A DNA stretch of 60,605 nucleotides from Candidatus Methanomethylophilaceae archaeon (GTDB lineage: Archaea > Thermoplasmatota > Thermoplasmata > Methanomassiliicoccales > Methanomethylophilaceae). The notes under the pieces were generated by a model that saw only the letters and a list, made by a program, of their open reading frames with translations, did no database searches and was not told the origin of the DNA. The translations under genes were made by a program, and so were the position numbers. The stretch is from positions 1 through 60,605 of the forward strand of contig JAFTYV010000005.1 in NCBI GenBank assembly GCA_017461225.1, written 5' to 3'. This document shows positions 30,148-34,250 of this stretch, piece after piece; positions within the stretch are counted from its first letter, which is position 1; every line of letters starts with the position of its first letter.

Positions 30148-30232
30148 TGGTGCCGGGGAAGGGATTTGAACCCTTGAACTACTAAAGACAGGATCCTAAA
30201 TCCTGCGCCTTTTCCGACTCGGCAACCCCGGC
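30148..30232 (-). tRNA. tRNA-Leu (anticodon UAG), CCA encoded
   Basis: On the minus strand the acceptor arms GCCGGGG and CCCCGGC pair perfectly, followed by discriminator A and a genomic CCA. The anticodon stem CAGGA/TCCTG encloses loop TTTAGGA with anticodon UAG (plus-strand positions 196-198 of the 30,000s). The T-arm is AAGGG-TTCAAAT-CCCTT. The long variable arm of 13 bases is typical of class II tRNA-Leu. No intron is seen. It reads CUA and, by wobble, other CUN codons. Confidence 0.95.
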
Positions 30233-32759: not shown

Positions 32760-32951
32760 TTTTTTGAGAAAACGGTCCATTGTGGGTCAACGGATGTGTC
32801 CGACACGGTGTCGGACAGATATCATGGATAGAGAAGGTACCCGTGGACCGCTCCATCGCGGTCCACGGAAGGAGGATTTCGGACCATCTCGGTCCGTGGG
32901 GGTGCAGAGGGGCGGCGCCCCTCTGCGGGGGGAGAAAATCGTGATGTGTGA
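32760..32951. other. hairpin-rich spacer between iorB and the FtsZ-like gene
   Basis: No gene is seen. The 190 bases hold four inverted repeats in a row. These are TGTCCGACA/TGTCGGACA (32797-32817, 3-base spacer), CCGTGGACCG/CGGTCCACGG (32841-32868), CGGACC/GGTCCG (32880-32896) and GCAGAGGGGC/GCCCCTCTGC (32904-32926). The last could end the FtsZ-like transcript on the minus strand. The first carries the same half-sites found upstream of the FtsZ-like and RHH genes. A structured RNA or a regulator site cluster is possible. Confidence 0.5.
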
Positions 32952-33650: not shown

Positions 33651-33671
33651 GCGTGCATCCCCTTTGTTGTG

Positions 33672-33752
33672 GCTTTAAGATGTTTGGACCACAAGTGAAT
33701 CGTGCATGTGTGTCCGACAGCTTGGCCGAAGCCATCCCATCCCTGTCAGACA
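33672..33752 (-). promoter_or_regulatory. FtsZ-like promoter with two TGTCNGACA sites
   Basis: A minus-strand CTTAAAGC box (33673-33680) lies 27 bases from the ATG. Upstream are TGTCCGACA (33711-33719) and TGTCAGACA (33744-33752), spaced 33 bases apart. Each is nearly self-complementary. They match the sites before the RHH gene, so the RHH protein is the natural candidate binder. Confidence 0.5.
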
Positions 33753-33770
33753 CACCGTCCCATCCCTTCA

Positions 33771-34130
33771 TCACTTGAGTACGGCGTTTCTCTGAGCCGC
33801 CCTGAAGGCGTTCTCGAACGCCTCCTCCTCGATGGTCTTGGTGATTATCCTCTCCAGGACGCATCTGCGGACGAACTCCTCTTCGTCGAGACAGAGTCCC
33901 GACTTCACGAGGTTTCCGAGGGCATCCATCTGCAGATCGCTGAAGCGAACGAAGATGCCCCCGTCCTCCATCTTGCCTGCACCGTTCCTCTTGGACTCGA
34001 TGTAGGTGCTGATGGCCTCGCGGATGAAATCAGATCTGCTTCCGAAGTTGTGGTCACCCATGAAGTCCTCCATTGCCTGGATTTCCTCAGGTCCCATCCT
34101 GATAGTGACCTTGGTTCCGTCGTCAGCCAT
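33771..34130 (-). CDS. ribbon-helix-helix transcriptional regulator
   Basis: A 119-residue protein. Its N-terminal 45 residues are a CopG/NikR-type ribbon-helix-helix domain (TKVTIRMGPEEIQAMEDFM then FGSRSDFIREAISTYIES). The C-terminal part is helical and unfamiliar (FSDLQMDALGNLVKSGLC; EEFVRRCVLERI). I chose the ATG at 34130, because GGAAGG lies six bases upstream; an ATG at 34136 is also in frame. The gene lies upstream of the FtsZ-like gene, same strand, and both promoters carry TGTCNGACA-like sites. Autoregulation and control of the FtsZ-like gene are inferred. Confidence 0.8.
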   Translation of the reverse strand: MADDGTKVTIRMGPEEIQAMEDFMGDHNFGSRSDFIREAISTYIESKRNGAGKMEDGGIFVRFSDLQMDALGNLVKSGLCLDEEEFVRRCVLERIITKTIEEEAFENAFRAAQRNAVLK

Positions 34131-34207
34131 TTTCATCCTTCCTTTGTCGCAAGTTTAGTAGAGTCCCATCCCTTCCAATGCTTGCTACGTAAGACATTGT
34201 CCTCCAG

Positions 34208-34250
34208 GTATAAAAAGCTTGTCGGACAACCGTAAGACAACGGTCGGACA
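34208..34250 (-). promoter_or_regulatory. RHH gene promoter with TGTCGGACA sites
   Basis: A minus-strand CTTTTTATACC box (34208-34218) is directly abutted by TTGTCGGACAA (34219-34229). A second copy, GGTCGGACA, lies at 34242-34250. The first would overlap the TFB recognition element, a typical position for repression. Confidence 0.5.

Follow-up and report, generated by a model that had tools for sequence, protein, structure and literature searches.

A predicted ribbon-helix-helix repressor and a putative small RNA may together control a single-domain FtsZ-like gene in Methanomethylophilaceae

Introduction

Haloarchaea encode a small ribbon-helix-helix (RHH) regulator, CdrS, directly upstream of the FtsZ gene ftsZ2, and this gene pair has been linked to the control of cell division (PMC7439475; PMC8406309). 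The cdrS-ftsZ2 mRNA of H. salinarum also appears to be controlled post-transcriptionally (PMC8303175). The locus described here, from a Candidatus Methanomethylophilaceae archaeon, resembles this system in that a predicted RHH gene lies directly upstream of an ftsZ-type gene, a comparison made from the description of haloarchaeal CdrS. The two differ in that the RHH protein studied here has 121 aa and is apparently a tandem, while CdrS is a single-RHH protein of about 60-70 aa. Furthermore, the FtsZ-like partner is truncated and the predicted operators lie on the TATA box of the RHH gene itself. A likeness also exists to aCcr1 (NCBIfam NF053762), which stands for archaeal RHH cell-cycle regulators, however our RHH protein reaches 19 bits against a cut-off of 60, and this over 15 residues only.

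The RHH repressors MetJ, omega, ParG and NikR act at tandem operators, short boxes that recur at roughly every helical turn close to the promoter of the repressor itself, and the N-terminal beta-strand contacts the bases. Here, in contrast, the spacing is 11 bp, the boxes read TGTCNGACA, and the RHH protein is without a NikR-like ligand domain. On the RNA side, the closest described systems are those of enterobacteria, where DicF, StfZ and DinR act on ftsZ mRNA (PMC10907235; PMC9628754). The small RNA (sRNA) gene reported here is likewise separate and its RNA would be complementary to the leader of ftsZ or to its ribosome-binding site, the likeness being one of complementarity only. It is unrelated to the enterobacterial RNAs in sequence and structure, has its own TATA promoter, is conserved across the order and, unlike them, is predicted to aim also at the leader of the neighbouring transcription factor gene. 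To our knowledge, little has been learned about the control of FtsZ in archaea, and we know of very few trans-acting archaeal sRNAs whose predicted target is so deeply conserved. Our literature search retrieved no report of an archaeal trans-acting sRNA aimed at a division gene. We propose that an FtsZ gene may here be under RHH control of the CdrS type and, in addition, under an antisense RNA that recalls DicF without being related to it in sequence.

Results

The genome analysed comprises 1.52 Mb in 64 contigs and is 97% complete. The window, by which we mean the whole stretch of 60,605 nt under study, is contig C50, and its features are collected in Table 1. Relatives of the encoded proteins come from metagenome-assembled genomes named Candidatus Methanomethylophilaceae, Methanomassiliicoccaceae and Thermoplasmata, several of them ruminant-derived. 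The FtsZ-like protein matches PF00091 with 117.7 bits and contains the signature GGGTGTG (in the context GLGGGTGTGAA). A profile search against the PDB aligned it to residues 34-228 of M. jannaschii FtsZ (E 4e-42), and with the AlphaFold model (pLDDT 78) the best Foldseek match was again FtsZ, over about 190 residues (E 4e-18). The protein ends after H7 and is without the T7 loop and the C-terminal domain. An FtsZ that has no T7 loop should not hydrolyse GTP in the ordinary FtsZ manner. The short form is the rule, and almost every complete orthologue has an open reading frame (ORF) of about 230 aa. The FtsZ_C model (PF12327) found no match in 100 of the 102 family genomes, and therefore the family seems to manage with FtsZ-like proteins of a single domain. 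In the genome studied here the gene is the sole tubulin-family match.

A second RHH gene of 98 aa (VEKVTVRLP...) was seen at about 9.9 kb of contig C19 of this same genome (G000, L291). Its product is nearer to a CdrS-type query and matches a CdrS-looking relative (E 6.9e-5). The ORF that comes directly after it, starting MDDILMVCCGGGGHRVLE, looks like a divergent tubulin/FtsZ homologue that PF00091 misses, and many members of family f1 have a second, more divergent tubulin-like ORF.

For the RHH protein of the window, Pfam returned no match at 1e-3, and the profile search against the PDB gave weak matches to CopG/NikR chains (E 0.06-0.65). The AlphaFold model is of low confidence (pLDDT 66) and has zero strands assigned; it places helix-helix units at residues 16-29/34-51 and 67-79/85-97, plus a C-terminal helix. 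Orthologues are found in 92 of 102 family genomes, mostly with 115-125 aa, and wherever the contig continues, every locus read has the order RHH to ftsZ-like. The RHH-ftsZ locus on contig C29 of G089 (L018) is near-identical to that of G071, although G089 is assigned to another genus, and is probably a contamination of the G089 assembly.

Table 1. Features of the RHH-ftsZ locus, listed from high to low window coordinates
Feature	Position	Strand	Remarks
Operator box 1 (predicted), TGTCCGACC	34242..34250	-	first of exact 11-bp tandem
Operator box 2 (predicted), TGTCTTACG	34231..34239	-	second of tandem; absent from the initial annotation; box type recurs in relatives
Operator box 3 (predicted), TGTCCGACA	34220..34228	-	3 nt from TATA box
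TATA box of the putative RHH-ftsZ transcript, TTTTTATA	34209..34216	-	position conserved in relatives
Extra box (predicted), TGTCTTAC	34189..34196	-	near expected transcription start; relatives have GTAAGACA/TGTCTTAC
Predicted sRNA target element in RHH 5' UTR, AAGGGAUGGGACUCUAC	34158..34174	-	within weak hairpin, fold z -1.85; predicted duplex -31.8 kcal/mol
RHH regulator gene, 121 aa	33771..34136	-	single chain that seems to comprise two ribbon-helix-helix units (TKVTIRM..., GGIFVRF...)
Second predicted target element, AGGGAUGGGA	33758..33767	-	directly 3' of RHH stop; best predicted duplex of ftsZ leader region -27.5 kcal/mol
RNA hairpin in ftsZ leader	33708..33755	-	arms are the sites at 33711 and 33744; fold z -4.90; covariation
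Third predicted target element, AGGGAUGGGA	33735..33744	-	at bulge of ftsZ-leader hairpin
ftsZ ribosome-binding region, GGGGAUGCAC	33653..33662	-	9 nt complementary to sRNA
FtsZ-like gene, 232 aa	32952..33650	-	tubulin/FtsZ GTPase domain and H7 only; tail FPLKQLMSA
Inverted pair TGTCCGACA/TGTCGGACA	32797..32817	no strand	past ftsZ, not conserved

An initial annotation of this DNA had listed one near-palindromic motif as TGTCCGACA (33711-33719) and TGTCAGACA (33744-33752) before the FtsZ-like gene and as TGTCGGACA (34220-34228) and GGTCGGACA (34242-34250) before the RHH gene, and all four sites are present at these positions. The site at 34220 was said to touch the TATA box; it is indeed close by, but a gap of 3 nt separates the two. 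At the RHH promoter the three boxes TGTCCGACC, TGTCTTACG and TGTCCGACA form an exact 11-bp tandem. Conservation upstream of the orthologues, which had been proposed as a check, is pronounced: the 89 orthologous RHH upstream regions hold 68 exact TGTCNGACA sites compared with 0.3 expected from dinucleotide shuffles, and among the 44 regions containing any site, 37 show one that ends 0-4 bp before the TATA box. RHH promoters without exact sites have the variant boxes GTAATACA, GTATGACA and GTGATACA at the same place. The half-site moreover varies with the protein. Where the first beta-strand residue is K or R (K/R-[VI]-T-x-R), a GACA half-site is found in 49 of 59 cases, while with another residue this holds for 5 of 22 (Fisher 7.6e-7). 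Scored over whole arrays, K/R occurs with GACA 52 times and with TACA six times, and other residues occur 19 times with TACA and 0 times with GACA. On the tree of the FtsZ proteins the association comes down to a small number of independent events, namely four contrasts with good support, each of them pointing in one and the same direction (sign test p 0.125, the lowest value possible for four). Since the residue tracks the half-site (GACA or TACA), it ties the RHH protein to these boxes, and we regard the case for a predicted binding of the RHH protein to its own promoter as strong, albeit not conclusive.

The boxes lie over BRE/TATA and the start site, and this position suggests repression, so that we predict that the RHH protein represses its own gene. 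Autoregulation had been anticipated in the initial annotation and is supported by the conserved boxes abutting the TATA box and by the half-site following the beta-strand residue, as far as can be judged from sequence comparison. An alternative would be that the boxes activate, as has been proposed for CdrS at ftsZ1 in Haloferax, and that the sRNA is a fine-tuner. In line with this, CdrS sites are located upstream of promoters and depletion of CdrS lowers ftsZ1 (PMC8406309). However, CdrS motifs are mostly found 41-110 nt upstream of the start site, while the boxes described here lie against the TATA box and occur again at the start site, which is the position expected for a repressor. Activation is therefore rather unlikely in our view, and autorepression is the reading that we follow.

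The sRNA gene is located on contig C32, where an intergenic hairpin contains the 21-mer AAGGGATGGGATGCACTCTAC, which is invariant and which each genome of the family has in about one copy. The adjoining gene, recognised from its start, is presumably SRP54. At a fixed spacing from the hairpin a TATA box is present on one strand in 55 of 57 distinct copies, compared with 1.2% at random places. It is found in 0 of 57 on the other strand, and on this ground we reject a hairpin read from there. The strand with the TATA box is opposite to that carrying the 21-mer, and the hairpin begins about at the expected transcription start. Among 64 copies there are 52 distinct stems, each with at least 13 pairs, around the invariant loop, almost every lineage having a stem of its own, and in several families the stem is followed by the oligo-T stretch CCCTTTTTT. 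Strand and invariant loop taken together, the RNA would therefore expose GUAGAGUGCAUCCCAUCCCUU, the complement of the leader elements described below. Of the 147 genomes of the order, 126 contain the sRNA core (a reversed-pattern control gave one match), as do 192 of 399 sampled genomes of the class Thermoplasmata. MAFFT/RNAalifold returned no consensus pairs for the RHH-leader hairpins (A1) and the sRNA (A3), because stems of unequal length were misaligned; the structures given for both are from per-sequence folds, which are no covariation test. Rfam 15 at E<=1 had no match for seven sRNA loci or six RHH-ftsZ loci, and the literature yielded no match for the sRNA core sequence and none on small RNAs in Methanomassiliicoccales. 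The hairpin appears to be a separately encoded, previously undescribed RNA gene of about 75 nt that is presumably expressed. Within the window, a tRNA gene (30151-30232, minus strand) is the sole Rfam match.

The putative targets of this RNA are short elements that recur at the RHH-ftsZ locus. The 10-mer AGGGATGGGA has ten copies in the genome, three of which are at this locus and a fourth of which is the sRNA gene. Elements of the type GGGATGGGA are present once in the RHH 5' UTR, where the stretch 34158-34174 reads AAGGGATGGGACTCTAC, and at two places in the ftsZ leader. The GGGAUGGGA elements of the leader hairpin and of the RHH leader are complementary to the sRNA loop. Other readings of GGGATGGGA were rejected, namely an upstream ORF (the frame is not conserved), a general Shine-Dalgarno sequence (merely 10 copies in the genome) and a known RNA (no Rfam match). 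Besides the duplexes predicted for this genome (Table 1), the mean duplex over 79 genomes is -24.2 kcal/mol with the RHH leader and -24.3 kcal/mol with the ftsZ leader, compared with -13.2 and -15.0 kcal/mol for shuffled loops. Among 79 relatives, 62 have the target motif in the RHH leader and 68 in the ftsZ leader (coding controls: 4 and 6, respectively), and 35 have GGGATGCAC no more than 25 nt from the ftsZ start versus 0.15 in coding controls. Many of the target elements do not reach the full length of the sRNA complement, and the element in the RHH 5' UTR is lost in one subclade of the genus (G057, G061, G067-G069).

It is conceivable that the GGGAUGGGA elements are bound by some RNA-binding protein with a CsrA-like logic and that the free-standing RNA has no antisense role. 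A short, repeated GGA-containing motif at hairpin loops or bulges, several per mRNA and not bound to one reading frame, would be in line with such a protein. The pairing, however, also covers the CUCUAC block in the RHH leader, and in G011 it reaches far, the ftsZ leader and the sRNA gene having 28 nt in common. In addition, the free-standing gene is read from the opposite strand according to its TATA boxes (55/57 against 0/57), and therefore its RNA should carry the complement and not the motif. We consider protein binding unlikely, and antisense pairing with the sRNA remains our preferred explanation of these elements.

The two sites before the FtsZ-like gene had been annotated as operators, a role for which we see no support, as they form the two arms that pair in an RNA hairpin. 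When transcribed, 33708-33755 folds into GUGUGUCUGACAG, a GGAUGGGA bulge, an inner UGGC-UUCG-GCCA and CUGUCGGACACAC (z -4.9). Relatives have arms of different sequence, compensatory changes being seen in 9 of the 11 pairs predicted, and they retain the bulged GGAUGGGA, while TGTCNGACA is found at this hairpin in 2 of 79 relatives. The ftsZ-leader hairpin is conserved as a structure and not as DNA sites, and its arms happen to read TGTCNGACA in this genome. Between the hairpin and the ftsZ ribosome-binding site, a conserved AAACNNYTTAA stretch was noticed in the window (33660-33700) and in relatives. The inverted pair that had been described as lying just beyond the FtsZ-like stop is present (32797-32805/32809-32817), but it lies 135-155 nt beyond the stop and nearer to the end of a convergent gene (32728). 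A part in the switch, as had been suggested for it, finds no support in its conservation, since 6 of 79 relatives have any site within 200 nt beyond ftsZ.

Clustering of the motif beyond chance was a further claim of the initial annotation, and it holds: the window contains 9 exact sites versus 1.9 in dinucleotide shuffles (shuffle maximum 6), and for the five exact sites within 1.43 kb the genome-wide rate (lambda 0.058) gives a Poisson P of about 5e-9. A genome-wide scan had been proposed as well, with an equally common motif as counter-evidence. In raw counts TGTCNGACA is indeed common (62 sites versus 24 for the reversed pattern). All 62 sites were read in context, with genes called by a simple codon-usage gene caller, and 56 are inside predicted genes and 6 are intergenic; five of these six are the cluster at the RHH-ftsZ locus. 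The high count is explained by codon usage, and the intergenic cluster is nonetheless unique. The proposed counter-evidence holds for the raw counts and fails for intergenic DNA, which is decisive here. The sixth intergenic site (C48:30911 in G000) lies between two convergent genes. The tandem-spacing pattern TGTCNGACA-N10-TGTC gave zero matches in the genome.

The density of five exact sites would fit a single DNA switch in which all clustered TGTCNGACA sites, before and after the FtsZ-like gene, are RHH operators, and GTCCGAC or GTCAGAC does occur in the leader-hairpin arms of two g6 relatives. We nevertheless judge such a switch to be quite improbable, given how few relatives keep the leader and downstream sites and that the leader pair is a covarying hairpin. 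A site in one hairpin arm forces a site in the other, and therefore the pair is one coincidence and not two. That the cluster is a chance product of a GC-rich genome full of TCCGAC codons is hardly credible, for although 56 of 62 sites are coding and the motif exceeds its reversed pattern, the same position is kept in dozens of genomes (68 sites versus 0.3 expected), so that chance is contradicted for the RHH promoter and may hold for the pair at 32797-32817.

Discussion

Our analysis points to a circuit with two layers of control. The RHH and FtsZ-like genes probably share one minus-strand mRNA, for which the TATA box around 34209-34216 would mark the start. The RHH protein would bind the array of TGTCNGACA/TGTCTTAC boxes, which are one DNA turn apart and extend over BRE/TATA and the start site, and would probably repress its own mRNA and hence the FtsZ-like protein too. 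The sRNA of about 75 nt from C32 is predicted to pair via its loop GUAGAGUGCAUCCCAUCCCUU with AAGGGAUGGGA(N)CUCUAC in the RHH 5' UTR, and likewise with the ribosome-binding region of ftsZ and the GGGAUGGGA elements of its leader. The likeliest outcome of this pairing would be less translation of the RHH protein and of the FtsZ-like protein. Taken as a whole, we think it likely that RHH autorepression and sRNA control act together on a two-gene mRNA whose FtsZ-like product is without a C-terminal domain. The sequences themselves show the positions of the sites, their conservation, the RNA structures and the complementarity; from these we infer strongly that the RHH protein is linked to its operators, and we also infer repression by this protein as well as the expression and effect of the sRNA.

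Such a circuit would be testable in gut and rumen methanogens, since the putative RHH repressor comes with mapped operators and a specificity residue, and the sRNA gene with a promoter, a structure and target sites. An archaeal family whose detectable FtsZ-like proteins are without the C-terminal domain also prompts us to ask what the division ring is made of.

Matches to the sRNA complement outside the family, picked by sequence alone with at most one mismatch, suggest further candidate targets. Near-perfect 16-mers are located before FtsZ-like genes in G111, G134 and G019, and in many genomes a match lies just past the stop of a short CdrS-like RHH gene. In two genomes (G130:C13, L275; G133:C1, L278) matches lie before a gene for a protein of about 80 aa (MEFEPDVVEWMKQHKVREIKALAKEVEEHG), which has several GGGATGGGATGC elements and, at its promoter, boxes that resemble the operators. 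In G134 (C6, around 53830; L280) a match lies before an SMC gene that has the operator as well, its promoter/leader containing both TGTCTGACAGTCGTCGGAC and GGGATGGGATGCAGTC. Other matches were coding or ambiguous, and therefore the list of candidate targets is selective. Whether one base-pairing sRNA with an invariant loop of about 20 nt, kept across much of Thermoplasmata, might act post-transcriptionally as the master regulator of archaeal genes for division and segregation (FtsZ-like, its RHH regulator, CdrS-like RHH, SMC and the protein of about 80 aa), with RHH repressor operators on some of the same promoters, is a proposal to which we give even chances. Among the loci read, G110, G111, G120, G125 and others (L257, L259, L263, L270) show an element of the GGGATGGGATGCACTT type right after the stop of the CdrS-like RHH gene, followed by T-runs, and this element might act as a sponge for the sRNA or as a target in the 3' UTR.
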